A stretch of DNA of 43,774 nt from Bacteroidales bacterium (GTDB lineage Bacteria > Bacteroidota > Bacteroidia > Bacteroidales > UBA932). Each line of letters begins with the position of its first letter. Position 1 is the stretch's first letter. The stretch spans positions 1-43,774 of the forward strand of contig JAFWPA010000050.1 in the NCBI GenBank assembly GCA_017509685.1, given 5' to 3'. The notes under the pieces are model-generated. The model was not told the origin of the DNA. It saw only the letters and a program-made list of their open reading frames with translations, and made no database searches. The position numbers and the translations under genes were made by a program. Below are positions 16,420 to 42,059 of this stretch, one piece after another.

Positions 16420-16492
16420 GGGGTATTAGCTCAGTTGGTAGAGCGTTTGAATGGCATTCAAAAGGTCAGGAGTTCGATTCTCCTATGCTCCA
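16420..16492 (+). tRNA. tRNA-Ala (anticodon GGC)
   Basis: 73 bases fold as a cloverleaf. The acceptor stem is GGGGTAT paired with ATGCTCC (with wobble pairs), the D arm contains AGCTCAGTTGGTAGAGC, and the T arm contains GGTTCGA-like AGTTCGATT. The anticodon stem TTTGA/TCAAA holds a loop ATGGCAT with GGC at positions 34-36, which reads GCC (Ala). CCA is not encoded. An integrase gene follows in the same direction, so the 3' end of this gene is the likely attachment site of the mobile element. Confidence 0.95.
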
Positions 16493-16854
16493 CTCCTTAA
16501 ATGATTGAAAATCAATCAGTTAGAAAGGCTCTAAGCGTTGAAACTTAGAGCCTTTTTTAGTGTGTTTACGGTAAAGTTCGAGCTTTTTTCGAACCTTTTT
16601 CTCGAAAAGTTTGAAGAATGCTTGAAGAAAATGGGAGGCGTAAGTATTTGATTATCAGTATTGCCATCGTTTTGGGCTTTCAACTGCTTCAAAAACTTGC
16701 AACGGCTATCCCGGGATGAAAAAACGGCCAGTATTCAGCGAGTCAAAAGCCATGTTACCCCGTTTTGTTACCCCAATTTTGGCGTAAAGCATCCTTCAAA
16801 TTATGGGACCAGAACCTATATGTTTAACCATTATTTGAAAAATGCTTGAAGAAA
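16493..16854. other. Putative attachment/regulatory region between tRNA-Ala and integrase
   Basis: 362 bases without a convincing gene. It holds the terminator at 16525-16558 and a 13-base sequence GTGTGTTTACGGT (16560-16572) that recurs at 18154-18166 just beyond the integrase gene. A 17-base sequence AATGCTTGAAGAAAATG occurs at 16617-16633 and 16841-16857, and two GTTACCCC units lie near 16752-16773. Repeated short direct repeats beside a tRNA and integrase are what integrase arm or core sites look like. A 62-codon frame at 16661-16849 has no family features and was not called. Confidence 0.5.
16525..16558 (+). terminator. Terminator downstream of tRNA-Ala
   Basis: An 11-bp perfect stem, AAGGCTCTAAG (16525-16535) with CTTAGAGCCTT (16544-16554), loop CGTTGAAA, followed by T-rich sequence. 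It probably ends the tRNA transcript; it could lie on either side of the integration junction. Confidence 0.75.
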
Positions 16855-16857
16855 ATG
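16617..16857. repeat. 17-bp direct repeat upstream of the integrase
   Basis: AATGCTTGAAGAAAATG occurs at 16617-16633 and again, identical, at 16841-16857, where it covers the integrase start codon. The copies are 224 bases apart. Possible integrase or regulator binding sites. Confidence 0.6.
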
Positions 16858-18078
16858 AAGACCGTAACTTACACAGTATCAGTCACTCCGGTAGTTCTGG
16901 ACTCGACTTGGAAGAAGAATGGGACCAATTATGTCCGTCTCCGTCTTGGGCTTAAGGGTTCTACGAAGTTAATCAAAACCAGTATTGTAGTTCACAAAGA
17001 GCACTACAAAGGTGGCAAAATCATTTATAAGCCCCTGAAGACCACGCTGGAGGAGCTTGTTCTGGAGACGGAGAAAAGGCTTACAGAGCTCAAATCCGAT
17101 ACGCTGGCCGGAATGTCACTGGACGATGTAGAGCGCTATCTAGCCACCTATGGTAAGGAAGATGAGTTCAAATTAGACTTCTACACCTTTGCCGATGAGG
17201 TTATTGCCCAGAAGAGCGGTCAGTCCCAGAAGACGTATCAATCGGCCCTGAATTCCTTCAAGGCATATATCAACGAGGATACCTTTGATATATCCCGCCT
17301 TACCTCTTCTTTAATGCGGGATTGGGAGCGCTGGCTTAGGAGTAAGTATGGAGACGGAGCTCGTGCGGTAAGCGCGTATACGAACTGCATCGCCTTTATT
17401 CACGGGCAGGCCCGGCTCAAGTACAATGATGAGGAGCTGGGCAATATCCGCATCCGGAATCCTTTCCAATTCTATAAACCACCGCGCCAGAAGGCCTCAA
17501 AGCACCGTGCTGTCGAAGCAGAATTCGTGCAGAAAATGATTGCGATACGGTCGCAGCTCAAGGGCCGGGAGAAACTGGGTGTGGACGTGTTCCTGATCAG
17601 TTTTGCCTTGATGGGCATGAACTGCCCGGATTTGTATTCCTGCAAGCTGGACAAAGATGATGTCCTGCACTACTTCCGTACAAAGACGCGGGGGCGGCGG
17701 GATGACGGGGCCGAGATGTTCGTGCGGATTGAGCCTGCCGTCAAGGAAATCATCGGCGAGTATCTCTCCGACGACAAGGACATGGCGTTCAAGTTTTCCT
17801 CTATGTATACGTCTTATCAGATTTTTGGAGAAAATGTGAATGCCGGGCTTGATAAATTCTGTGAACGGATCAAGGCCCCCAAGGTTACTTTGTACTGGGC
17901 ACGCCATTCCTGGGCTACCATTGCGTATGCTAATGGTGTGACAAAAGGCGTGATCAACGACTGCCTGTGCCATGTTGACCGTGACATGAAAGTGACAGAC
18001 ATCTATGTAAAGAAGAATTGGGCCATCCTGTGGGATGCAAACAAGAAGGTTCTGGATCTGTTTAAGTGGGCGGCATGA
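16855..18078 (+). CDS. Tyrosine recombinase/integrase of the mobile element
   Basis: 407 residues from the ATG at 16855 (a TTG at 16846 is in frame but less likely). Residues 1-95 form an arm-binding-like N-terminal domain. Residues 100-205 match the SAM-like core-binding domain, and the rest is the catalytic domain. The box II segment is WARHSWATIA (Arg-His). LCHVD carries the next His, and the nucleophile is the Tyr of TDIYVKKNW. The place of the first catalytic Arg reads LMGMNCPDLY, so Arg I appears missing, as reported for the Bacteroides integrases IntDOT and IntN1. It should integrate and, with a helper, excise the element at tRNA-Ala. Confidence 0.92.
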   Translation: MKTVTYTVSVTPVVLDSTWKKNGTNYVRLRLGLKGSTKLIKTSIVVHKEHYKGGKIIYKPLKTTLEELVLETEKRLTELKSDTLAGMSLDDVERYLATYGKEDEFKLDFYTFADEVIAQKSGQSQKTYQSALNSFKAYINEDTFDISRLTSSLMRDWERWLRSKYGDGARAVSAYTNCIAFIHGQARLKYNDEELGNIRIRNPFQFYKPPRQKASKHRAVEAEFVQKMIAIRSQLKGREKLGVDVFLISFALMGMNCPDLYSCKLDKDDVLHYFRTKTRGRRDDGAEMFVRIEPAVKEIIGEYLSDDKDMAFKFSSMYTSYQIFGENVNAGLDKFCERIKAPKVTLYWARHSWATIAYANGVTKGVINDCLCHVDRDMKVTDIYVKKNWAILWDANKKVLDLFKWAA

Positions 18079-18483: not shown

Positions 18484-19371
18484 TTAAGGGGTTAATCGCA
18501 TGTTGGAGGAATAGCCTCGGGAGGCTTTGAGCATGTCGTTCAGATCCTTGTGCTGGCTGTAGAGGTTAGACATGTCGACGACTTCTTTGTCTTTCATGAG
18601 GTCCGTGATGGCCTGGAGGCAACGCTTCCCTGCTGCATCGTTGTCCAAGAAACAGTAGGCGCTGTCGTGGGCGCGGATGTATTCGACTGCTCTGGCGAGG
18701 TTGTTGACGGAGTTGAGCACGACGACGTCGCAGTTGGGTTTTTCGGCCCCCTGCATAACTTGCCAGGACAGGAAGTCCCAGAAGCCTTCGAAGACGGCGA
18801 CCTTCTTGGAGGATGGCTGGGTGGTCATCTTTGCTTCGGTATTGAGGGTGGTGATGCCGGCCACGAAGGAGGATTTGAGGCCGAGAGGGTTGCTCAGGGC
18901 ATAACCGCCAGAGTTGTTGGGGAAGGCTACGGTGAGGTAGTTCCTGCCGTTTTCAGCGTTGTGGATCTGGGCTTCCTTGCAGTAAATGATGGCCAGATTG
19001 AGGGGGATCTTGCGGATTTCCAGATAGCGGGCCAGGTAGTTGCTCCGGAGGGGCTTGACGTAGTTGATGCTCCTTTTAGGGCGTTCCGGTTTCGGCTTTT
19101 CAGTCGGTTGCAAGGCTGGCGAGAGGGATGCAATGAACTTCTCGGCCTCGAACTTGTTGCAACGCAGGGTGAGCATGACCAGTTTGACATTGGTGCCGCC
19201 GACGCCTGCACCGTGGTCGTACCAGACATTTTTCTGCCGGTCTACGTGTAGCGAGGCGTCATCTTCGTTCCGGAAGGGCGAATACCACATGTCCTTCACG
19301 GTCCCCCGCTTAGCGCCCAACGCCTCAAGGACCTTCTCCAGCGGGTAGTTACAAAGCTGTTTGTCAAACAT
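18484..19371 (-). CDS. Toprim-domain DNA primase of the mobile element
   Basis: 295 residues from the ATG at 19371 (MFDKQLCNYPLEKVLEALGAK). A longer frame to 19560 would cross the regulatory region and has no family features. The N-terminal part keeps the shape of a CHC2 domain (WYSPFRNEDDASLHV, WYDHGAGVGG) but lacks the zinc cysteines. The Toprim part has the acidic residue in AVFEGFWDFLSW and the DxD in CFLDNDAAGK. It should prime replication of the transferred strand or of the excised element. It is the first gene of a pair with the small HTH gene. Confidence 0.85.
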   Translation of the reverse strand: MFDKQLCNYPLEKVLEALGAKRGTVKDMWYSPFRNEDDASLHVDRQKNVWYDHGAGVGGTNVKLVMLTLRCNKFEAEKFIASLSPALQPTEKPKPERPKRSINYVKPLRSNYLARYLEIRKIPLNLAIIYCKEAQIHNAENGRNYLTVAFPNNSGGYALSNPLGLKSSFVAGITTLNTEAKMTTQPSSKKVAVFEGFWDFLSWQVMQGAEKPNCDVVVLNSVNNLARAVEYIRAHDSAYCFLDNDAAGKRCLQAITDLMKDKEVVDMSNLYSQHKDLNDMLKASRGYSSNMRLTP

Positions 19372-19396
19372 CGTCAAAAAAATTTTGTCTTTTTTC

Positions 19397-19443
19397 TTGT
19401 TTCTTCGTTTTTTTCTCTTTACCTTTGTCCAAGAATTTTGGAC
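19397..19443 (+). promoter_or_regulatory. Promoter with palindromic operator for the HTH regulator gene
   Basis: TTG at 19397-19399, a 20-base spacer and TACCTTTG at 19420-19427. The palindrome GTCCAAGAATTTTGGAC (19427-19443, 6-bp arms) begins at the last base of the -7 element, ideally placed for repression. The 20-base block starting TTTGTCC closely matches the block after the -7 element of the mob promoter (23981-24000 on the minus strand). Confidence 0.6.
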
Positions 19444-19558
19444 TAAGACAGAAATATTCTTAATACAACTATAACAAATTTGTCGCGAGACGAAATTGTT
19501 TGTCAAAGGCAAAGAAAAGACTGTCTTTCCAAAAAAACAAATTTTGAGACAACGAATC

Positions 19559-19873
19559 ATGAAAACTAACGAAGATCAAAAGGGCGCAAAAAAGGCCCAA
19601 GAGGCTTCTGAGAAGCCGATTTTACGCAATGTTCGCCGTGTACTCCCGGGCAAAAAGAAGGGTATGCGTCTGCGCCCGTTCTTCGACATTTTGGTGGACA
19701 ACAACATGTCCATCGCCGAACTTGCCCGCCGCTGCGGAATGGCCAAGCAGAGCATGAGTACCCGCTTTGCCGTGGATGACTGCCGCTGCTCGGATATGGA
19801 GGAGATGGCTGAGGCCCTCGGCTACAAGTTCGTCTGGTATCTGGAACCCAAAGAGGAAGAGACTGAAGCTTAG
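19559..19873 (+). CDS. XRE-like helix-turn-helix regulator
   Basis: 104 residues from the ATG at 19559. The first third is Lys-rich and disordered. Residues 40-90 form a helix-turn-helix: FDILVDNNMSIAELARRCGM, then AKQSMSTRF, then MEEMAEALGYKFVWYLEP, as in small lambda-repressor-like proteins. It is the only plus-strand gene in the module and converges with the coupling-protein gene, overlapping its stop by two bases. Its own promoter carries the palindrome also seen at the mob promoter, so it is the best candidate for a shared repressor of transfer genes (inference). Confidence 0.75.
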   Translation: MKTNEDQKGAKKAQEASEKPILRNVRRVLPGKKKGMRLRPFFDILVDNNMSIAELARRCGMAKQSMSTRFAVDDCRCSDMEEMAEALGYKFVWYLEPKEEETEA

Positions 19874-21765
19874 ACATCAGGATTATTAAGTTCAAACTGC
19901 AAGAAATCCGCCACGTCCTGGCGGATTTTTTGGTAATTGCGCTCCACCAGCGTGTTCATTTGTTCGTCTGTGAGGTCGGTCAGGCGGGGAACGCACTCCT
20001 GGCTTTTGGGCGGCGCACCGGCGTCTACTTCCCCGCAGAAGATCTTTGGATGTATCTTTTGCTTATAGGTATCGGCCACGTAGCCGCAGAAGCTGCCTTG
20101 CGAGAGGGCTTCTATCTTGTCCGGCGGCAGGAGGTCCCTTAATTCGAAGTCCAACGTCAGCTGGTCGTTGGTGTCGCTCTGCATGAGTGAATAGGTGGGA
20201 TGGTCCACCTTGCCAAAGGATCGGCTCAAATCCTCGGCCGTGTCCCCTTTCACGGAACCTGCGAAGACGTTGCCGACGGTGTTGAAAATGACATCAGACT
20301 CTTTTGTGTCATAGTCACGGACCAGCTGGGACTTGTCCTGGGCGCCGATGACGACGGCGACTTTGTTGCTGCGGGCCGTATCGATAAGGTTGTCCAGCCC
20401 CTTCAGATAGATGGTAGGGAGCTCGTCGATGAGGATGCCGCAGTGGTTCTTGCCCGGAACATTGACTTCTTTGAAGAGCTGGGACATCATGAGCGCGAGG
20501 GTGGTCCCATAGACGCTCTGGCGGCGCGGATTGTTGGCGATGCAGATGATTTTGGGCTCGTCTGGGTTATTGATATCCAGTGAGAAATCATCCCCTGAAA
20601 GCACCCAGTAGAGGGTTTTGGAGGCGAATCGGTTCAGGGGCACGCGGGCCGAGGCAATCTGTCCCTGGAGCTGCTCGAAGGCTTTGTCCTTCATGGCATC
20701 GGCAAAGGTGTTGCGCTTGACTTCCAGCTCCGGGAACTTCTCCAGCACGTCGAAGACGTTGCGGTAATCCTGGCCCATGAGCTCGATGAGGTGCGGGAAG
20801 GTGCAGTATCGGCCGCCTTGATAGATTTTTAGGAACCAGATGAGCAGGTCTACGTAGCAGCGGGCACTCATGGAGAAGAAGTCCTCCCCTTTCTCGGAGC
20901 CCCGGTTGGCGTTTTTGAGGATAAGCTCGGCGATTTCCGTGGAATCCACCGGATCCTTCAGGTAGCGTGGGTGGATGGGGTTAAAGCGGTGGGAATAGGG
21001 CGGATTGTCGAAGTTGACTACATACATATGCGGCTTCGGCCCTTTATAGCTGTCATAGTTGTCCATGAGCTCGTTCAGGACGCGATGGGTCAGGTCCGGC
21101 GCCTTGTAGTCGTAGACGCAGAGCGAATAGCCTTTCTGGATCATTCCTCGGATGAACGGACCGTAGATGCTGTAGGATTTTCCGGAGCCAGGCGTTCCCA
21201 GAATCATACAGCCGCGCTGCGGGGAAACTACATTGATGTAGCCCCTGTGGCGTTTGCCTTTATATTGATAGGTCATGGGGATGTTGACGCTGTCTTCGTT
21301 CTCGATGAGATCCTCGCATTGCGGGAAGGTGTCGAAATAGTCAGGGAGGTTTCCGTCGAAGCTGTGGTACAGGCGTCCCAGCGCGATGGCGCCGATCAGA
21401 TAGAAGATGAACCCGGCCAGCGTAAAGAGAACAAAGACGACGCCGGCGCCCATCAGCGGAGCGGTGAAGAAGAGCGCCAGGCCAATGGCCATCGGCAATA
21501 CTATTTGCATCCAGCCGGTCTTTTGGCCGCTGCCGCTGCGCACGATGACCGAGAGGGTGCAGAAAAAGAGGCAGACTCCCCTGACTGACCATTGCGAGCG
21601 GAAGGCGCCGGATTGGTAGAATCCCTTGATGAGCGAATCCGTAAGGGCGCATCTCACCCCCAGCGCCACCCACATCGGATACGCATAATAATAAAGGATA
21701 AACGCCAGGATCACCCCTGCAAAGAGGAGAAACATGGAAAATATGGGTTTGGTCTGTACTTCCAT
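19870..21765 (-). CDS. Type IV coupling protein (VirD4/TraG-like)
   Basis: 631 residues. The N-terminus has several membrane segments (residues 10-130). The ATPase has Walker A MILGTPGSGKSYS near residue 187 and Walker B GILIDELPTIYLKGLDN, followed by GAQDKSQLVRDY, the usual TraG/VirD4 order. It hands the relaxase-DNA complex to a mating pore. The start is two bases after the relaxase stop, so the two genes are co-transcribed. No other mating-pore gene is present, so the element would use the pore of a resident conjugative element. Confidence 0.92.
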   Translation of the reverse strand: MEVQTKPIFSMFLLFAGVILAFILYYYAYPMWVALGVRCALTDSLIKGFYQSGAFRSQWSVRGVCLFFCTLSVIVRSGSGQKTGWMQIVLPMAIGLALFFTAPLMGAGVVFVLFTLAGFIFYLIGAIALGRLYHSFDGNLPDYFDTFPQCEDLIENEDSVNIPMTYQYKGKRHRGYINVVSPQRGCMILGTPGSGKSYSIYGPFIRGMIQKGYSLCVYDYKAPDLTHRVLNELMDNYDSYKGPKPHMYVVNFDNPPYSHRFNPIHPRYLKDPVDSTEIAELILKNANRGSEKGEDFFSMSARCYVDLLIWFLKIYQGGRYCTFPHLIELMGQDYRNVFDVLEKFPELEVKRNTFADAMKDKAFEQLQGQIASARVPLNRFASKTLYWVLSGDDFSLDINNPDEPKIICIANNPRRQSVYGTTLALMMSQLFKEVNVPGKNHCGILIDELPTIYLKGLDNLIDTARSNKVAVVIGAQDKSQLVRDYDTKESDVIFNTVGNVFAGSVKGDTAEDLSRSFGKVDHPTYSLMQSDTNDQLTLDFELRDLLPPDKIEALSQGSFCGYVADTYKQKIHPKIFCGEVDAGAPPKSQECVPRLTDLTDEQMNTLVERNYQKIRQDVADFLQFELNNPDV

Positions 21766-21767
21766 AG

Positions 21768-23066
21768 CTAGTATTTCCTGCGTGGTCCGGTTTTTCTGTA
21801 GCTTCGCTTATAGACATCGTCGTCGTGCCGGCGGTTCCTTCCATGGGAGAAGATCTCCAGTATATCCTCCAGGTCATCCAGGAACTGGGAGTTCTTCTTT
21901 TCTTCTTCATCCTTTGCAGGAGGCTCGCCCCAGCGCTCCACCCTTGCCTTCTCGAACTCCGCTGCCCCAAGGCCCATTCCTTTAAGCTCATTGCTCCGAA
22001 ATACGCACCTTGTCTGATGGTCGACGAGGGTGACGTCTTCTATCCTTCCCCCCTTGGCTTTGTTCAGCACCACCGAGATGTTCATCTTTGCCAGAATCTT
22101 CCGGCAGTCCTTTTCCGAAGTGCCGTGGTTCAGCGCGATGCGGAGGGCATTGCAGACGCGGGTTTTATCTTCGTAATGCGGCTTTTCCTGGCAATGCTCC
22201 ATGTGCAGGGAAATTGCCTCCGGATTGGGCACGTTGAGTTTGGTGGAATGCATTTTCTCCGTACAGCGCTTGCCGGTCTTGGGGTCCAGTCCGGCGAAAG
22301 TGACGTACAGGCTCAGCCCCTTGCGCTGGAATTCAACCTCGATGCGGAAGCTTCGCATCATGTCTTTGAACTGCTTGATGTCCCTGAAGTCATACTTCAT
22401 AGCCTGCTCCATAATCTCCTCAATCTGATGAGCATACTCCCCTTTCTTGGGGTCAAACTTCTTGTAGCGGACGCGTTCCGTGATGACCGCATCTTCCGGG
22501 ATTCCTTCCGGAGGCGGGTTGTCCTGCAGCCATTTCTCAAAGAGTTCCGGGTCCAGGAAATGGGCGGCCGCCTTGGAGGTAAATGCCTTCCCGTCTATAT
22601 CGGCTTCCTTCTTCTCGCCCTTACCGATAGTGAAACCGTATTTGGCTGCCAGTTTCTTCATGAGCGCCTGGCATCTCCGTTTTTCATTGGAATCGTTGAT
22701 TTTCTTCCCTTCCTTGTCCACACGGACCGACACTACGTGATAATGCACGCGACCCGTATCCATGTGCTTGTAAATGATGTAGGGCTGGTTCCCGTAGCCC
22801 AGCCCTGCCATCAGTTCCTTGGCAAATTCCACGACCTGCTCCTCGCTCATCCCGTCCGTGTCAGAAGGGTTGATGGACATGTGAAAAGACGTTTTCTCAC
22901 AGCGCAGGCTTCCACGCTCGTAGCGTTCCAGCGTTTCTACGGGATTGTCCGGATCATCTACATTGGCTACATACAAGATGGTGGCCACTCCCCCTTCTAC
23001 CTTTAATTGGTTATAGAGGAAGGCGCTTGCACACTGCGTTGCAGGAGGGTTAATCTTTACTACCAT
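21768..23066 (-). CDS. Relaxase/mobilisation nuclease
   Basis: 432 residues. The relaxase domain covers about residues 1-170. It shows SFHMSINPSD, then the histidine triad region IIYKHMDTGRVHYHVVSVRV with the HxH pair, then KKINDSNEKRR. This is the MobP/Bacteroides MobB style (Relaxase PF03432). The nicking Tyr is probably one of those near residues 18, 32 or 48. The C-terminal part is charged and lacks further known domains. It would nick the origin of transfer and pilot the strand. It lies between ssb and the coupling-protein gene. Confidence 0.9.
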   Translation of the reverse strand: MVVKINPPATQCASAFLYNQLKVEGGVATILYVANVDDPDNPVETLERYERGSLRCEKTSFHMSINPSDTDGMSEEQVVEFAKELMAGLGYGNQPYIIYKHMDTGRVHYHVVSVRVDKEGKKINDSNEKRRCQALMKKLAAKYGFTIGKGEKKEADIDGKAFTSKAAAHFLDPELFEKWLQDNPPPEGIPEDAVITERVRYKKFDPKKGEYAHQIEEIMEQAMKYDFRDIKQFKDMMRSFRIEVEFQRKGLSLYVTFAGLDPKTGKRCTEKMHSTKLNVPNPEAISLHMEHCQEKPHYEDKTRVCNALRIALNHGTSEKDCRKILAKMNISVVLNKAKGGRIEDVTLVDHQTRCVFRSNELKGMGLGAAEFEKARVERWGEPPAKDEEEKKNSQFLDDLEDILEIFSHGRNRRHDDDVYKRSYRKTGPRRKY

Positions 23067-23110: not shown

Positions 23111-23416
23111 TCAGCCCTCTTTGCCCATGGGTGCCAGATCCAGGTTCAGGACCCAGACATCCAGGTTGACGAAGGTTTTGTCATCTTTGGGGACAACGCT
23201 GACCTTCAGCGAGCCCATGACGGTCACGAAGCGGCCCTTTTTGAGGTAGTCTATCACGCCTGTCTTTTTCATGCGGCAAGTGTAATAGGTGGGCTTTTCG
23301 TCCTTGTCACGGCCATCGTTTACGGCCACGTCGAAACGGAGGAGTTCATTCCCCTCCTTGCTGGTGAGAACCTCGACATCTTTGGCCAGGTTCCCGGTGA
23401 TGATAATAGTCTGCAT
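23111..23416 (-). CDS. Single-stranded DNA-binding protein, short form
   Basis: 101 residues from the ATG at 23416; four earlier codons are possible. The OB fold is recognisable from TIIITGNLAKDVEVLT, LLRFDVAVNDG, YYTCRMKKTG and LKKGRFVTVMGSLKV. The acidic C-terminal tail of chromosomal SSB is absent, as in many mobile-element SSBs. It would coat the transferred strand. It lies in the mob operon between the MobC-like gene and the relaxase gene. Confidence 0.85.
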   Translation of the reverse strand: MQTIIITGNLAKDVEVLTSKEGNELLRFDVAVNDGRDKDEKPTYYTCRMKKTGVIDYLKKGRFVTVMGSLKVSVVPKDDKTFVNLDVWVLNLDLAPMGKEG

Positions 23417-23440
23417 AGCGCAAATCAATTAAGTGAAACA

Positions 23441-23944
23441 TTAGGTATGGGAATCCCCGCTGACGGGAGACTCATTTACTTGGTTATAGATTTCGTTGAC
23501 CTTCTCCACCATGCCATCCATCATGTGCTTCATCTGCATCATGTCGCGGTCGATATCGGCGGCATTAATGATGGGACGTCCCCTTTTGTCACGGAGCTTG
23601 GCAAGGGTATTCAGGGCTTTGACCCTCTGATTATAGTTAACGCCAATGTGCTTGAGTTCTGCCCGGAGCAGCTCAATCTGTTTAATCAGCGTAGCCTCAT
23701 TTCGGCCATAATACCTGCGCTGAATGCGTACGGCAATGGCCCTTTCACGGATGTATTTTGAACGGTTTCTGTATCCCGAAAGCCGCATCTGGAGCAAGAG
23801 TTTCTCCAGTTCTTCGTCGGAAAAACGTACGTTGATGTAATGTTTTCTAATCTCTCTCACAATCCAACTCAAATTACAGTTCAACAGGGCCAGTGGGGTG
23901 TAAAACCGCCCGTCAGGGCGAGTGTTCGTGACACGAACACACAT
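23441..23944 (-). CDS. MobC-like relaxosome accessory protein
   Basis: Up to 167 residues. The segment INVRFSDEELEKLLLQM looks like a ribbon-helix-helix and LRAELKHIGVNYNQRVKALN matches the end of the bacterial MobC domain. It would bind the origin of transfer and help the relaxase. The start is uncertain: the ATG at 23944 makes the first 28 codons read through two inverted repeats. A GTG at 23860 (139 residues, just before KHYINV) is in frame and better fits family length. First gene of the mob operon. Confidence 0.75.
   Translation of the reverse strand: MCVRVTNTRPDGRFYTPLALLNCNLSWIVREIRKHYINVRFSDEELEKLLLQMRLSGYRNRSKYIRERAIAVRIQRRYYGRNEATLIKQIELLRAELKHIGVNYNQRVKALNTLAKLRDKRGRPIINAADIDRDMMQMKHMMDGMVEKVNEIYNQVNESPVSGDSHT
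23907..23940. other. Paired inverted repeats at the mob operon start: candidate oriT or relaxosome site
   Basis: GTGTTCGTGACACGAACAC (23922-23940) is a perfect palindrome with 9-bp arms. Immediately beside it, 23907-23920 reads CGCCCGTCAGGGCG, a hairpin with 5-bp arms followed on the minus strand by TTTTAC. The pair lies directly before the mob genes, where oriT is usually found, and overlaps the annotated start of the MobC-like gene. An attenuator in the leader is the other reading. Confidence 0.5.
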
Positions 23945-23980
23945 CTTGCTTTTTGAGTTATCTCAAAAACGGTACTCCTA

Positions 23981-24037
23981 TCCCAAAGACCTGGGACAAA
24001 TGTAAGTATTGTTTTTATTAAGTCCAAACTTTTGGGA
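23981..24037 (-). promoter_or_regulatory. Promoter of the mob operon with shared operator
   Basis: On the minus strand: TTTG at 24028-24025, a 20-base spacer, TACATTTG at 24004-23997. The downstream palindrome TCCCAGGTCTTTGGGA has TCCCA/TGGGA arms and is the same block that follows the -7 of the HTH-gene promoter. A second related inverted repeat, GTCCAAACTTTTGGGA (24022-24037), covers the -33 element. Two operator copies around one promoter suggest tight repression. Confidence 0.6.
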
Positions 24038-24099
24038 ATTAGTCAGAGAAAATTTGCCTATTTATGGAAGAGTCGCTATGTTTGCATTGCCATGATGCG

Positions 24100-24187
24100 A
24101 TATGGCGATATTACCATATGGCGAATTGACCATTTAGCGATTTAGCGAAATGACTATTTGGCGATAATACTGCATGACGATATTGCC
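24100..24187. repeat. Iteron-like array of tandem 16-bp repeats
   Basis: Five 16-base units: ATATGGCGATATTACC (24100), ATATGGCGAATTGACC (24116), ATTTAGCGAAATGACT (24140), ATTTGGCGATAATACT (24156) and GCATGACGATATTGCC (24172). An 8-base half unit ATTTAGCG lies at 24132. The core is AT(A/T)T(G/A)GCGA. The array lies in an AT-rich, gene-free stretch (23945-24262) between the mob operon and a plus-strand gene. Phased tandem repeats of 16-20 bases are typical of replication or partition origins, or of relaxosome binding sites. Confidence 0.65.
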
Positions 24188-24262
24188 AGATGTGGTAATA
24201 TGGTAACATCGTAAAGTAGTCAAGTGGAGAACTAGAATAGTAGAATTGAAGAAATGTAGCGT

Positions 24263-24571
24263 ATGGATCAGTTGGAGATGTTCCGGCGTCAGTTAAGGAA
24301 AAAGCCGGATGAGGAGATTGAGACGGACTCCCCTGCCGTCAGCGAACCTGTAAAGGTGAAGAAGAAAGTGAAGGACCAGGGATACAGCAGTATCCGCCTT
24401 CGGGAGGATGTGCTTCGGAAGGGCCGGCTGCTTTCGGTGTGGCTGGAGGCCAACATGGGACGAAAGGGTGTGTCGCTCGTACAGCTGTTCGAGGAGGCCC
24501 TGGACTGCCTGATAGAGACCAGGTACCCTAAGTTCCAGACGGCGCTCAAGGGCTTCAAGGGGAAGGAGTAA
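24263..24571 (+). CDS. Small basic protein of the mobile element, unknown
   Basis: 102 residues. The N-terminal half is charged (LRRKKPDEE-like, then EPVKVKKKVKDQG). The C-terminal half, YSSIRLREDVLRKGRLLSVWLEANMG followed by SLVQLFEEALDCLI, has the strand-helix-helix look of a ribbon-helix-helix or partition-type DNA-binding protein. It starts 75 bases after the iteron array and diverges from the mob operon, so it is a candidate iteron-binding protein. I do not recognise a named family. Confidence 0.6.
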   Translation: MDQLEMFRRQLRKKPDEEIETDSPAVSEPVKVKKKVKDQGYSSIRLREDVLRKGRLLSVWLEANMGRKGVSLVQLFEEALDCLIETRYPKFQTALKGFKGKE

Positions 24572-27099: not shown

Positions 27100-27348
27100 G
27101 TCTGGCGGCTTTTGCCGACAGACGGGCGGAGTGAGGCGCGGCGGTGGAACAGTCTCTGGCGCTTGGGCCTGACGAGGCGTAAGCCCGGCAGACCAAGTGG
27201 CAGAGTCTGTGGAACCGTGAGACTGCTGCGGCGGCTTGCCGACGCAGATGTCTCAAGCGCTGTCCAGCGGAGACGGACTTCACGGCAGTGCAGCGGGCGG
27301 GCGCGCTGTGCCCAGTCCGATGTGCTGACGGAAGTTGGTCGGAGCGGA
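27100..27348. repeat. GC-rich structured repeat, copy A (long form)
   Basis: The 397 bases between fic and the next gene hold no gene; 250 of them are very GC-rich and full of stem-loops, for example GTCTG-GCGGC-TTTT-GCCGA-CAGAC at about 27100-27123. The last 81 bases, from GCGGAGACGG (27267) to GGTCGGAGCGG (27347), are nearly identical to copy B at 28478-28559. Differences are confined to a hairpin loop and a short spacer. No open frame here looks coding. Confidence 0.65.
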
Positions 27349-27373
27349 CTTTTTCCGAGTCGCTGAAAATGGT

Positions 27374-27381
27374 TAAATTTG
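27374..27381 (+). promoter_or_regulatory. -7 element for the lipoprotein/barrel gene pair
   Basis: TAAATTTG matches TAnnTTTG, 59 bases before the ATG at 27441; no clear -33 is seen. Confidence 0.4.
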
Positions 27382-27440
27382 CGTGGCGGATGTTACTTAT
27401 TTACGCTAAGTTGCATCTGTAATAGAGGAAATCTGCTTTT

Positions 27441-27884
27441 ATGAGACATTTTGGAATATGGGCTGCCTTTGCAGCGCTGGTCCTGTTAGGAAGCTCCTGT
27501 AACAGGATTTTGAAGGATGGAGACTGGGATCCTATTAAGATGGACAAGTCGGAAGTGCACTTCACGTCTAACGGTGGCGAGGAAACAGTGACTTCTTTGA
27601 ACTATGGGTCTTGGTGGATTAACGGCGGATACGAAGATTTCCAGATTGTTAACGGGCAAGGTCAATACGTGAATTATATCATGGCCGGTTCCAGCGATGG
27701 TCAAGAAGCGTATACCTACGACATTCTTGACGGCGGTTGGTATCACGCCAGCGTTCCAGAAAAAGGCCGAAGCAATAAGTTAATCATAACCGTCGATCAG
27801 AATTACACGGCCAAACCCCGGCAGGCTACCATAGATATGGAGGCAGGCGATGCGTTCACCAGTGTCAAGATTTATCAGAATTAG
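27441..27884 (+). CDS. Small lipoprotein, BACON-like
   Basis: 147 residues. The signal peptide ends in LLGSSC (lipid Cys near residue 20). The mature domain is beta-rich: EVHFTSNGGEETVTSLNYGSWW, then SNKLIITVDQNYTAKPRQATI and a final strand VKIYQN, the layout of BACON-type beta sandwiches. It is probably on the cell surface or in the periplasm. Three bases separate it from the next gene, which encodes a likely outer-membrane protein, so the two may act together. Confidence 0.65.
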   Translation: MRHFGIWAAFAALVLLGSSCNRILKDGDWDPIKMDKSEVHFTSNGGEETVTSLNYGSWWINGGYEDFQIVNGQGQYVNYIMAGSSDGQEAYTYDILDGGWYHASVPEKGRSNKLIITVDQNYTAKPRQATIDMEAGDAFTSVKIYQN

Positions 27885-27887
27885 GAG

Positions 27888-28409
27888 ATGAAGAAGCTTG
27901 TTATCACAATAATCAGTTTTCTTGTATTATCCAGCCCCCTCTTTTCGCAAGAAATAGAGTATAGGAGCCAGGGCTACAAAGGCAGCGTGACGTATACGAA
28001 TATGATTCTCATGTGGAACGGCATTGACACGTCACATGGGTATATGTTCAATGAGAATCACTACCTGGGTGCTGGATTTGGTTTTTATCTGGTTCCCCAA
28101 CGTGTATCCATGCCCATCATCTTGCACTTCTATCTGGACTATCATGCTTATTGGTTCCAGCGGAAGAGTACACCTGTGGCAGGAATTAAGTTGGGTTACG
28201 CAAGATCAGTGCACCCTAAGGAGGCGAACCCTAATGTCAGCGCATTAGAGATAGAGCCCAACATAGGTTGGAGCTGGGCCATAAAGTCGGGTCAAGGATT
28301 AACGCTTTCGTTGGGGGCCAAGATTATGACCGCGCCCATCAGAATCACAGAAAACAGTTCCCTTCCCGTATCCGTTCTTCCGAACCTAGGGTTCGCATTT
28401 GAGTTCTAG
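27888..28409 (+). CDS. Secreted beta-barrel-like protein, unknown
   Basis: 173 residues with a signal peptide (MKKLVITIISFLVLSSPLFS). The rest is a series of short alternating amphipathic strands with aromatic residues (GAGFGFYLV, LHFYLDYHAYWF, LSLGAKIM) and a final LPNLGFAFEF ending in Phe. This C-terminal Phe is typical of outer-membrane barrels. It is small, about eight strands. It is co-transcribed with the preceding lipoprotein gene. Confidence 0.65.
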   Translation: MKKLVITIISFLVLSSPLFSQEIEYRSQGYKGSVTYTNMILMWNGIDTSHGYMFNENHYLGAGFGFYLVPQRVSMPIILHFYLDYHAYWFQRKSTPVAGIKLGYARSVHPKEANPNVSALEIEPNIGWSWAIKSGQGLTLSLGAKIMTAPIRITENSSLPVSVLPNLGFAFEF

Positions 28410-28427
28410 GACCATTTTGAGTCATGT

Positions 28428-28559
28428 GGGCGGGTCCGTTGGCGCTACTAGCGCCGGCGGTCCCGCTTTGGGTTTTCGCGGAGACGGACTTCACGGCAGT
28501 GCAGCGGGCGGGCGCGAAGTGCCCAGTCCGATGTGCTGACGGGGAGCCGGTCGGAGCGG
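28428..28559 (+). repeat. GC-rich structured repeat, copy B
   Basis: Starts 19 bases after the preceding stop. The first part folds as a long hairpin (28430-28466): GCGGG, a T-T mismatch, CCG, then GGCGC around the loop TACTA, with matching 3' arms. The second part (28478-28559) matches copy A. It contains GGGCGC-GAA-GTGCCC, a 6-bp hairpin whose loop is changed in copy A. The element ends in GGTCGGAGCGG. Confidence 0.7.
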
Positions 28560-28606
28560 TTGTGCCATTCTGTCAGTCCAGGAAGATCGCCATAGTATTT
28601 GCAGTA

Positions 28607-29750
28607 ATGGACAAAAAACCATTTATTATGGCAAGAACAGGATTCAACAAACACGATATCGCACGCGACGCGTGTCAGTTATTCGGCCCGCAGGCCCATC
28701 AGGGCTACGACTGGTGGTGGCATTCGTTTACGGGACATGATGCTGAAACTGGCGAGGAAAAGCCTTTCTTCATAGAATTCTTCCTCTGCAATCCCGCATT
28801 GGGGACCGATAAGCCCGTTTTTCGGCCAAATTCCCGGTAAACCCGCCAAGCCGTCCTATCTGATGGTGAAGGCCGGTGCCTGGGGGTCGGATGCTGCCCA
28901 GCTGCATCGTTTCTGGGGATGGAAGAAGATCAAGGTGGACTGGGATGTCCCCTTCTCCGTAGAGGCCGATGACTGCTTCATCACCGAAGACCACACACAC
29001 GGCAATGTGAAAGTGGAAAACGCAGCTGAACATCCCGAGTGGATGTGCAATGACGGAGAAATGTCCTGGAACCTGAAAATCAGCAAAATCACAGCCTTCA
29101 ACGTAGGTTTCGGGGCCGATGAGGTATTCCGCCACGCCGAGGCCTTCGAGATGTTCTGGCACGCCGAGGGCATGAAGACGGAATACGAAGGCGAGGTCAT
29201 CTGGAATGGCCGCCGTTACATCGTCCGTCCGGAGGACTGCTACGGTTATGCCGACAAGAACTGGGGACGGGACTTCACCTCTCCCTGGGTCTGGCTTTCC
29301 TCCAACAACCTTATCAGCGAAATCACCGGCAAGAAGCTCACCGACAGCGTGTTTGACATCGGCGGCGGACGGCCGAAGATAGGCCACCTGGCACTCCCCC
29401 GGAAGCTCCTGTCGGCCTTCTGGTACGAAGGAAAGCCCTATGAGTTCAACTTCTCCAAAGCCTGGACGCGCGTACATACAGAGTTCGAGTGCAAGGAGAC
29501 CGATACGCAGATTATCTGGCACGTGGAGCAGCGCAGCACCTCCGGCCGGATGATTACCGATGTCACCTGCGAGAAAAAGGATATGTTGCTGGTGAATTAC
29601 GAATCCCCGGACGGCGCCAAACGCCATAACAGGCTATGGAATGGTGGCAACGGGGTCGGTACAGTCCAGCTGTTTGACCGTCACGGGAATCTTGTGGACC
29701 GCATCCACGCGGAGAATATCGGCTGCGAATACGGAGAATATGACAAATAA
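28607..29750 (+). pseudogene. Frameshifted tocopherol-cyclase/lipocalin-like gene
   Basis: Two frames join into one protein of about 380 residues. The first starts at the ATG 28607 (MDKKPFIMARTGFNKHDIARD) and has YDWWWHSFTGHDAETGEEKPFF. It breaks at a run of five T near 28820: removing one T reads GTT-TTC-GGC and continues into the frame ending at 29750 (PSYLMVKAGAWG, YGYADKNWGRDF). The aromatic beta-rich sequence resembles tocopherol-cyclase-like proteins (PF14249), without certainty. Either a recent +1 insertion inactivated the gene or the base is an assembly error; the downstream frame is otherwise intact. Confidence 0.7.
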
Positions 29751-29762
29751 ACCATACACATT

Positions 29763-30335
29763 ATGAAAACAAGTACTAAGATCTGGCTGGCGATTGCAGG
29801 TATCCTGCTCGTAGCCCTTGGCGTGGTTTGCATTACCAAGCCCGCTGCAACCTTATTCACTACCGCCTGGCTTATCGGCCTGTTCACCCTGATCGCCGGT
29901 GTTTCCAAACTGATTTTTACCTTCCGTACGCAGGCCTTCCTGCCCAACAGCGGCACGCGGGCCCTGTCGGCCATCCTGGAGATTATCATTGGCATCATCT
30001 TCCTGGGAAACAACATCTTCCTGGCCTTCTCGCTGCCTGTCATCTTCGCGATGTGGGTGCTCATTGAGAGCGTCATCATCACCGTGAACAGCTTTGACTA
30101 CAAGCGCGTCGGATTCCCCGCCTGGTGGGTAATTCTGCTGCTGGGTGTCTGCGGCATCGTACTCGGTGTCCTGGGTCTTAAGAATCCGGATGTCACCGCC
30201 GCTACGCTGTCCACTCTGATTGGTCTGGGCGTTATTTCCGCCGGTGCAGCCTATCTGTGCGCGCTGCTCGGTATCACCCGCTTTGAGAAGAAGGTGGACG
30301 GCTTCCGTCGGGAGATCGGAATTGACGAGCAATAA
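29763..30335 (+). CDS. DUF308/HdeD-family membrane protein
   Basis: 190 residues with six hydrophobic helices in pairs, each helix about 20 residues (IWLAIAGILLVALGVVCI, SAILEIIIGIIFLGNNIF, WWVILLLGVCGIVLGVLGL). The repeated (L/I)xGxxxxxxG pattern is that of HdeD/DUF308 proteins, some of which aid acid resistance in enterobacteria. A short charged tail follows the last helix. It starts 12 bases after the frameshifted gene and ends 20 bases before repeat copy C. Confidence 0.8.
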   Translation: MKTSTKIWLAIAGILLVALGVVCITKPAATLFTTAWLIGLFTLIAGVSKLIFTFRTQAFLPNSGTRALSAILEIIIGIIFLGNNIFLAFSLPVIFAMWVLIESVIITVNSFDYKRVGFPAWWVILLLGVCGIVLGVLGLKNPDVTAATLSTLIGLGVISAGAAYLCALLGITRFEKKVDGFRREIGIDEQ

Positions 30336-30355
30336 TATTGCAAATAATCAATTAC

Positions 30356-30450
30356 GGGCGGGTCCGTTGGCGCTTTTGCGCCGGCGGTCCCGCTTTCGGT
30401 TTTAGCGGAGACGGAGTGACCGGCTTGTCCGGGCACTTGGTCGGAGCGGA
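30356..30450 (+). repeat. GC-rich structured repeat, copy C
   Basis: Starts 20 bases after the preceding stop. The hairpin at 30358-30393 is the same as in copy B (GCGGG, T-T mismatch, CCG, GGCGC) but has the loop TTTT instead of TACTA. It is followed by TTTCGGTTTTAGCGGAGACGGA and ends in GGTCGGAGCGGA. The middle 40 bases are shorter than in A and B and contain their own CCGGCTTGTCCGG hairpin. Confidence 0.7.
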
Positions 30451-30459
30451 TTATTTTAG

Positions 30460-40261: not shown

Positions 40262-40999
40262 ATGACCACAACGGAAAGGATCATACAGTACGCGACCCTG
40301 CAGCAGGGGCCCTTCAAGAAGAAGGACCTTGCCGCCTGGCTGTCCAATGCTTCCGGAGCGGCCGATACAAGCCTGCAGAAGCAGCTGGAGCGCCTGGTCG
40401 CATCCGGTCGGCTCGCCAAGGTAGGATGGGGCGCATATCAGCTCGGCACAGCGTCCAAGCCCCGGTTCTTCCTTACCCTGAAGCCGCAGACCCAGGAGAT
40501 GGGCGCATACCTCCGGCAACGCTACCCGCTGGCCGATTTCTGCATCTGGGACGCCTCCAGCGTTATCCCCTTTATGCTCCATGTGCCCAATATCAACATG
40601 GTCATCGTGGACGTAGAGCGTTTTCTGCAAGAGTCCTTCCCGGACGCCCTCCGGGAGAAATATCCAAACCTGCCGGTCCTTCCCAATCCTACCCGGGAAG
40701 AGTTCTTCAAGTTCGGCAGCACCTCCGGCTGCATCGTCCTGCATACTCTCACCACCGAATCACCGCTGGACAGCTTCGAAGGCGTCCCCGTCCCGCAGAT
40801 GGAGAAAATGCTGGTAGACATCGTCCTCAACCCGGAATTTGACTTCCTCCAAGGCAGCGAACTCAGCCGTGTTTACCGGGAAGCCTTCTCCTCTTACGAC
40901 ATCTCCCGCCCGCGCCTGCTCCGCTACGCCCAGCGCCGCGGGTGCCTGGACAAAATACAGCAACTGATAGACCGTACAACCAACATCAACCATGATTGA
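40262..40999 (+). CDS. AbiEi-like antitoxin (DUF6577 type)
   Basis: 245 residues. The N-terminal winged helix (IIQYATLQQGPFKKKDLAAWL, then LQKQLERLVASGRLAKVGWGAYQL) is the DNA-binding part of AbiEi-type antitoxins. The C-terminal domain has the antitoxin-like DFCIWDASSVIPFMLHVPN. It overlaps the AbiEii toxin gene by 8 bases. Type IV antitoxins neutralise the toxin without binding it directly, and repress the operon. This variant corresponds to the Bacteroidota-type AbiEi group. Confidence 0.8.
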   Translation: MTTTERIIQYATLQQGPFKKKDLAAWLSNASGAADTSLQKQLERLVASGRLAKVGWGAYQLGTASKPRFFLTLKPQTQEMGAYLRQRYPLADFCIWDASSVIPFMLHVPNINMVIVDVERFLQESFPDALREKYPNLPVLPNPTREEFFKFGSTSGCIVLHTLTTESPLDSFEGVPVPQMEKMLVDIVLNPEFDFLQGSELSRVYREAFSSYDISRPRLLRYAQRRGCLDKIQQLIDRTTNINHD

Positions 41000-42059
41000 C
41001 CCCAGAAGCAGAAGCCTGGAATGGATTCAGCAGGCAAAGCAGCATATCCCCGGAGTATCCGACACACCCCTTGTAGAGAAAGCCATCCGCGCCCTCTCCC
41101 TGCTGGAATCCCTTGTCCGTTCCGGCTGCCCCTTCATCTTCAAAGGCGGTACGGCCCTGATGCTCCACCTGGACACCTCCCGGCGACTCTCCATTGATGT
41201 GGATATCGTCTGCCCTCCGGGCACCGACATCACTCAATACCTGGGCAAGTTCGGCCAGGAGTATGGTTTCACCGGCGCCGAGGAGATTGAACGCATTTCC
41301 CGCACCGGCGTCCCTAAATCCCACGCCGAATACCACTACGCTGTCACATACCCGTCGGGCCATCCTACCGACAAGATCCTGCTGGACGTCCTGTACGAAG
41401 ACATACACTACAATCAGGTCGTAAATCTTCCCATCGCAAGTCCGATGCTCATCCAGGACGGCGAGCCCGTTACGGTTCCGTGCCCCAGCCTGGCCGATAT
41501 GCTGGGCGACAAACTCACTGCCTTCGCCCCTCACACCACCGGCATCCCGTTCTTCAAGCACGAAGACCCCTTCTTCATGGAAATCATGAAGCAGCTCTAC
41601 GACATCAGTTCCATCCTGGACCGCATCGACGACCTCTCCGCCGTCCGGAAGACCTACGCCGAAATCGTCCCCATCGAGCTTGGCTACAGGAAGCTGGACC
41701 ATCTCACCCAGGCCGATGTCCTGAATGACACCTATCAGAGCGCGATGAACATTTGCCTGCGCGGCGCCCTGGACCACACCGAATTCAGCTACTATGCCGA
41801 CGGTGCCCGCCGCGTCAACTCCTTCATCATCCCCGAATCTTACAACGCCGATGTCGCCATCCGCGACGCCGCCAAAGTGGCCTACCTGGTCCGCCTCATC
41901 CAAACCGGCGCCAATGAGGTCAAGCACTATAGCCCCGAGATGGACACCGAGCTGGCCGCCGCCCTCATCGAAGACCAGAGCCTGAACAAACTCAACCGCA
42001 TCAAGAAAATCAGCCTCGAAGCCTTCTACTACTGCCTCCAGCTAGAGCAGCTCCAATAA
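40992..42059 (+). CDS. AbiEii-type nucleotidyltransferase toxin
   Basis: 355 residues. The nucleotidyltransferase core has FKGGTALMLHLDTSRRLSIDVDIVCPP near residues 48-75, with the G(G/S)xxL turn and the acidic DVD pair that bind metal. The expected later motifs also appear (LADMLGDKLTAFAPHT with K and D). AbiEii toxins use a nucleotide to block growth, for example on tRNA, and defend against phage. The gene overlaps the antitoxin gene and ends before a terminator-like stem. Confidence 0.88.
   Translation: MIDPRSRSLEWIQQAKQHIPGVSDTPLVEKAIRALSLLESLVRSGCPFIFKGGTALMLHLDTSRRLSIDVDIVCPPGTDITQYLGKFGQEYGFTGAEEIERISRTGVPKSHAEYHYAVTYPSGHPTDKILLDVLYEDIHYNQVVNLPIASPMLIQDGEPVTVPCPSLADMLGDKLTAFAPHTTGIPFFKHEDPFFMEIMKQLYDISSILDRIDDLSAVRKTYAEIVPIELGYRKLDHLTQADVLNDTYQSAMNICLRGALDHTEFSYYADGARRVNSFIIPESYNADVAIRDAAKVAYLVRLIQTGANEVKHYSPEMDTELAAALIEDQSLNKLNRIKKISLEAFYYCLQLEQLQ

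Follow-up and report, generated by a model that had tools for sequence, protein, structure and literature searches.

In type Ib partition systems such as omega/parS of pSM19035 and ParG/parH-OF of TP228, a small ribbon-helix-helix (RHH) protein with a flexible N-terminus serves both as centromere binder and as repressor, according to the excerpts available of three papers (PMC9499535, PMC5016525, PMC7308502). Omega occupies arrays of 7-bp units with a single dimer on each (PMC9499535), and the sites of ParG are described as tetramer boxes with AT-rich spacers (PMC9499535, PMC5016525, PMC7308502). The oriT region of R388 lies between two divergent operons, MOB and stb, and StbA attaches to direct repeats at the promoter from which it is itself expressed; stability depends on StbA but not on StbB, its ParA-like partner, and transfer goes up when StbA is lost (PMC3098194). 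Partition has also been described for integrative elements: SGI1 carries parS mimics and borrows the parABS of its helper (PMC10954446), and srpMRC of SXT/R391 is an actin-type system (PMC4489591). Here we compare with these systems an array of octamers in the leader of a small gene beside a Bacteroidales mobilisation module.

Results

An octamer array between a predicted promoter and a small gene

The window, by which we mean the whole 43,774-nucleotide stretch of DNA analysed, was described in a first-pass annotation, made from its sequence without database searches, as holding mob genes on the minus strand, a 102-aa open reading frame, a primase and a single-stranded DNA-binding protein (SSB). 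All of these proved to be as described. The assignment of the window to Bacteroidales is based on the kind of promoter and the families of its genes. The features of the region are:

16846-18078, plus strand: tyrosine recombinase, near tRNA-Ala (16420-16493)
18484-19560, minus strand: Toprim primase, with a weak CHC2 zinc-finger match
19870-21765, minus strand: coupling protein, Bacteroid MobC-type, below the NCBIfam cut-off
21768-23066, minus strand: relaxase, Bacteroid MobB-type, below the NCBIfam cut-off and above the Pfam Relaxase cut-off
23111-23428, minus strand: SSB
23441-23944, minus strand: MobA/NikA-type relaxosome accessory protein; Pfam match from residue 33, true start perhaps internal
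23922-23950, strand unassigned: oriT candidate, palindrome GTGTTCGTGACACGAACAC (23922-23940), then ACATCTTGC
23997-24028, minus strand: predicted divergent promoter of the mob operon, TTTG-N20-TACATTTG
24053-24084, plus strand: predicted Bacteroidota-type promoter of the 102-aa gene, TTTG-N20-TATGTTTG
24092-24211, plus strand: octamer array, in the leader of the 102-aa gene
24263-24571, plus strand: 102-aa protein, predicted from sequence profiles to be RHH, with strand YSSIRL; proposed octamer reader

The oriT candidate, which we take to resemble P-type nic sites, was aligned across nine loci, eight of which cover it (the stretch from L059 starts too late): CATCT[TC]GC is kept in all eight, and the palindrome is the same or nearly the same in five (the window, L058, L064, L065 and L070) and changed in L067, L071 and L072. 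A search for a second copy of the tRNA-Ala end found none, leaving the right end of the element undefined. Elsewhere the window holds several direct repeats of 19 to 65 nt among cargo genes (27267-30456) and an AbiEii-type nucleotidyl transferase gene (40992-42059).

The phased array runs from ~24092 to 24211 on the plus strand, with ~15 units of 8 bp and a core at 24100-24187. From 24092 onward, units 1-8 read ATGATGCG ATATGGCG ATATTACC ATATGGCG AATTGACC ATTTAGCG ATTTAGCG AAATGACT and units 9-15 read ATTTGGCG ATAATACT GCATGACG ATATTGCC AGATGTGG TAATATGG TAACATCG, giving a consensus of approximately ATATGGCG, with C at position 7 in 13 of the 15 octamers and A at position 1 and T at position 4 in 12 each. 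A repeat search returned a 25-nt reference with six in-register copies, their starts spaced by 16, 16, 24, 16 and 16 bases. The repeat thus lies where it was first reported, as 16-bp units with one exact half unit, but its unit is 8 bp and the supposed half unit is one ordinary unit. Outside the core the 8-bp phase continues on both sides in more degenerate form, and 24106-24119 is 93% complementary to 24198-24211, so that some of the last units are inverted relative to the first. The mean match of the array at lags 8, 16 and 24 is 0.63, a value reached by none of 1000 dinucleotide shuffles of the intergenic gap (periods 5-15; best 0.468), and the best period-8 value among 100 shuffles of the whole window was 0.426. 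Searched as DNA against plasmids and phages, the array region gave no match.

Matches to the Bacteroidota promoter consensus, taken from PMC7366714, number four in the window over both strands, with 0.24 expected. The array begins just 3′ of the plus-strand promoter, at about the predicted transcription start, and makes up the first ~120 of the ~170 bases from there to the start codon of the 102-aa gene, its scored block stopping 74 bases 5′ of that codon. All 24 leaders examined have TAnnTTTG within 330 bases 5′ of the gene; in 19 of them a TTTG stands ahead of it, 20 bases before (17 loci) or 18 (two loci), and in 19 of the 24 the scored block ends at most 9 bases from the start codon.

The 102-aa protein itself matched no Pfam family. 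In comparisons of its family profile with the PDB, the omega repressor was the best match, at E 0.11 and then 0.013 with more sequences, values close to the threshold, with unrelated folds from 0.16; comparison with DUF3408 gave a probability of 3-4%, and one of 12 family members touches DUF3408 (E 0.0083). These matches weakly suggest that the protein is RHH.

The array format follows the small gene

Of 299 family genomes, 27, one of them that of the window, have relatives of the relaxase, and the sister set was built from this search together with a 116-aa relative of the small protein in locus L055. On the upstream side of the mob genes, period-8 scores are at least 0.5 in 11 of 28 relaxase loci and lower in 17, which include the four closest relaxase relatives (L006-L009): L006 has a 17-bp period there, and upstream of mob such an array is lacking in L007-L009, L008 and L009 having another gene in that place. 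L055, from the same genome as L009, has the small gene and an array 5.6 kb from mobA. In these cases the array travels with the small gene and not with the relaxase. The first-pass annotation would have counted its reading as refuted if sisters sharing the mob genes did not conserve the units; taken literally this holds for the unit sequence but not for the format, from which the closest of these elements nevertheless depart. In L029, positions 2674-2769 hold twelve perfect copies of ATCACATA.

As a query, the 102-aa protein found no relatives in genome_contigs, viral contigs, plasmids or phages and, besides itself, only marginal matches in 299 family genomes. Of 151 genus genomes, 12 held a total of 15 matches to the 116-aa relative from L055, and a small-protein profile gave 32 matches in 28 of 300 genomes. 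Our survey consists of 30 loci from the profile search, 29 of which, the window included, have upstream DNA; many of its places are those of the 116-aa search, and the two sets are not summed. The first 13 small-protein genes had 12 periodic leaders, 11 of period 8/16 and one of 17, and in the survey a period of 8 or 16 came out on top, above all 200 shuffles each, at 23 of the 29 loci, the window among them. The exceptions above shuffles are L115 (period 17) and L126 (period 10); L110, L118, L125 and L130 have no periodic upstream array, and their upstream DNA looks like coding sequence. Gene starts in L127 and L128 are estimates from partial matches. The box sequences differ from element to element, so that the format is kept and the sequence is not. 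The leader shared by the entries L066 and L115 has a period of 17 instead of 8, and that of L056, a 132-aa candidate gene, has no array.

The format also extends to loci with ParA. In the inspected ICE loci, ParA and DUF3408 genes lie downstream of arrays; ParA is present in the ICE relatives L040-L042, L044, L045 and L050, and DUF3408 is the second gene in six of six scanned loci, L074 and L075 carrying the annotation too. The ParA of one ICE, used as a query, gave 24 matches in 13 of 295 genomes of the order. Period 8 or 16 is on top, above all 60 shuffles, in 17 of these 24 leaders (L088 does not differ from L089, and L085 has its peak far upstream); other periods exceed the shuffles in L086 and L099 (12) and L092 (17), and L091, L097, L102 and L103 show no periodicity. 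Long near-identical repeats of other lengths occur in the leaders of L099 and L092. For the window element, no ParA was found among the scanned genes downstream of the 102-aa gene, and the same query, which matches other genomes, found none in the 79%-complete genome.

Seven named ICE-type records were fetched and six tested (L077 was left out). Period 8/16 is present in L074, L075 and L079, the hosts with an array being Parabacteroides distasonis, Prevotella nigrescens and Phocaeicola massiliensis; a period-8 array was not found in L073 (where period 10 exceeds the shuffles), L076 (where period 8 leads, yet 25 of 100 shuffles reach it) or L078, the hosts here being Bacteroides ovatus, B. fragilis and Chryseobacterium. 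A scan of 328,565 bases, comprising the window and 28 fetched loci chosen for their mob genes, found 16 places with a period-8 score of at least 0.5, several of them close relatives; 15 lie directly 5′ of a small RHH-like or ParA-type gene, and in the sixteenth, L039, the array runs off the contig end. The same scan at periods 7, 9, 10, 11 and 12 gave 1, 0, 1, 2 and 5 places.

Units are gained and lost, and columns are unequally conserved

Repeats of this kind could be a drifting minisatellite that serves no function, or the leader could act as RNA. L028 lacks 80 bp of perfect octamers that L029 has, and the rest of the compared stretch is identical; this is a gain or loss of whole octamers, which indicates that slippage is active. 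We analysed gaps in 17 pairs of related leaders, some of which share events. Four pairs are free of gaps, six have gaps solely in multiples of 8 (8, 8, 16, 8, 24 and 80), and seven have other gaps: 8 and 16 inside the array with small ones outside (L081/L082); 8 inside the array and 4+4 at its end (L082/L074); 4 and 4 outside the array (L088/L096); offsetting gaps of 3+3, 1+1 and 12+12 inside it (L088/L095); 8, 7, 1, 24, 8, 15, 1, 2, 16 and 8 (L028/L027); 17 (L094/L100); and 27 mixed gaps (L080/L093). In these alignments whole units are frequently gained or lost.

Drift alone fits poorly with the finding that unrelated sequences nevertheless keep the same position and phase in many elements, and that strong period-8 sites in the scanned DNA occur only at such gene leaders. 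Nor are the columns of the arrays equivalent: they are unequally conserved in 11 of 17 arrays (p<0.05, uncorrected), equality not being rejected in the other six, and a test of variable columns by phase in the L088 group was suggestive (p 0.095). Unequal conservation is expected of a box plus a spacer. The co-variation of box and protein described below likewise argues against a functionless repeat. For an RNA-level role, the fold of the window leader has a z of -2.14, with 5 of 200 shuffles as good, and z is negative in 13 of 13 leaders tested (-0.2 to -4.1); against it, Rfam gave nothing up to E 1 and the leaders do not share a strong fold, and having examined this function we do not favour it. 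We consider it unlikely that the array is either a functionless minisatellite or an RNA leader.

The box changes with the small protein's predicted strand

We compared boxes with the predicted DNA-reading strands of the small proteins for 22 arrays, a set that leaves out loci without a period-8/16 array, L127 (whose strand is not aligned) and loci of the 116-aa search that repeat survey places or fall outside the survey (L068). Box distance correlates with strand distance (Mantel rho 0.33, reached in 0 of 2000 permutations, which ignore shared ancestry); the partial rho is 0.30 for the strand given the rest of the protein and 0.01 for the rest given the strand. Mean box distance is 0.16 for pairs with similar strands (n=18) and 0.62 for unlike pairs (n=185). 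When 97 six-residue segments along the protein were scanned, the best eight started at residues 38-46; in a 17-sequence set, ranks 2 and 4 of the strand segments go to those that start at residues 26-27.

The same comparison bears on another reading: the first-pass annotation had offered an unusual relaxosome array, which at oriT would be bound by the MobA-type accessory protein. The oriT candidate is ~140 bp away from the array, and the families that the MobA-type protein matches, MobC_2 and NikA-like, are themselves ribbon-helix-helix. MobA was found in 17 of 21 loci (L113 was left out), and its strand does not follow the box: rho is -0.12, with 859 of 1000 permutations as high, against 0.24 (6 of 1000) for the small-protein strand at the same 17 loci. 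One MobA strand, Y[IV]NVRF, occurs in 9 of the 17 loci across four different boxes, and in L055 the array and small gene stand well away from mobA. With the MobA-type strand constant while boxes change, we regard a relaxosome array as very unlikely. What the box co-varies with is the DNA-reading strand predicted for the 102-aa family.

An iteron origin is not supported

The first-pass annotation had also raised a plasmid-like replication origin; on that reading the units would be iterons to which a Rep initiator binds on the excised circle. Such an origin would suit an AT-rich gap that holds tandem repeats and has a primase and an SSB nearby, as well as the Rep3 genes present in two related mob loci, L047 and L052. 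The units, however, are short (8 bp) and differ in sequence among elements. A cognate Rep initiator encoded by the element, as an iteron origin would have, was not found in a search for Rep_3 (PF01051), the one Rep family searched, which gave 0 matches in the 79%-complete genome and matches in 2 of 14 control genomes. L047 provides a direct comparison: 24-nt iteron-like repeats spaced by 22-32 bp lie beside its Rep3 gene (3202-3332, with two more copies at 3548-3612), and its octamer array is separate, at ~4644. An SSB also occurs in a mob module without such an array upstream (L054). The iteron reading is not supported by these observations, and we hold it to be extremely improbable.

Discussion

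We think it likely, from sequence comparison, that this array serves the 102-aa predicted RHH protein as a cooperative multi-box operator, possibly partition-like, close to a candidate oriT. RHH dimers would sit side by side, one per octamer, and cover the leader, and this coverage would repress the protein's own gene. The resulting nucleoprotein patch near oriT might also act in a partition-like manner, as with ParG and omega, or in the manner of StbA, helping to keep the excised element and tuning transfer. In the related ICEs, ParA of the same operon could serve as motor, and these relatives would fit a full partition cassette; the window element, for which no ParA was found, would act motor-free or borrow a motor. 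A partition site with the 102-residue protein as the suspected binder was among the first-pass proposals. Both the site and the suspected binder fit better than the other first-pass options: the format recurs 5′ of the protein's relatives, and the box co-varies with the predicted strand.

More tentatively, and as less likely than not, we raise the possibility of a partition and incompatibility code common to the ICEs and mobilizable elements of Bacteroidales, under which each element's own RHH protein reads its own octamer, strand and box co-evolve, and box identity decides which elements can reside together, those without ParA either borrowing the motor of a helper ICE or being motor-free, StbA-like anchors.

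If these proposals are right, many mobile elements of the group carry an undescribed operator or centromere format beside their transfer origin, the natural pairs of box and strand amount to a specificity code for RHH proteins that predicts the compatibility of co-resident elements, and the way in which excised Bacteroidales ICEs and IMEs are kept becomes directly testable. In the open-access literature searched, we did not find a description of this 8-bp format of leaders, of how far it has spread among the group's ICEs and IMEs, or of the co-variation of box and reader.

The type of mechanism, on the other hand, is already known. Type Ib systems have short direct and inverted units at the promoter region of a small RHH-protein gene, and the window element likewise has its short-box array at an operon promoter and leader; ParA in the operon is a further likeness of related ICEs. 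The units differ in being of 8 bp and element-specific, where pSM19035 has the 7-bp WATCACW, and the array here starts at the predicted transcription start; a ParA in the same operon, characteristic of type Ib partition, was not found for the window element. ParG sites are built of 4-bp boxes that alternate with 4-bp spacers. With R388, the locus shares an operon diverging from the MOB and candidate oriT region, headed by the gene of a small protein, here predicted to bind DNA, and direct repeats at its promoter; the stbDRs are 9-bp units spaced by 2, compared with an 8-bp array here, and the 102-aa protein has no Pfam match and belongs to an integrated element of another phylum. SGI1 and SXT/R391 offer the likeness of partition functions on integrative elements. 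SGI1 mimics the sites of its helper and SXT/R391 uses an actin-type system, whereas here each element seemingly carries its own box and its own reader.
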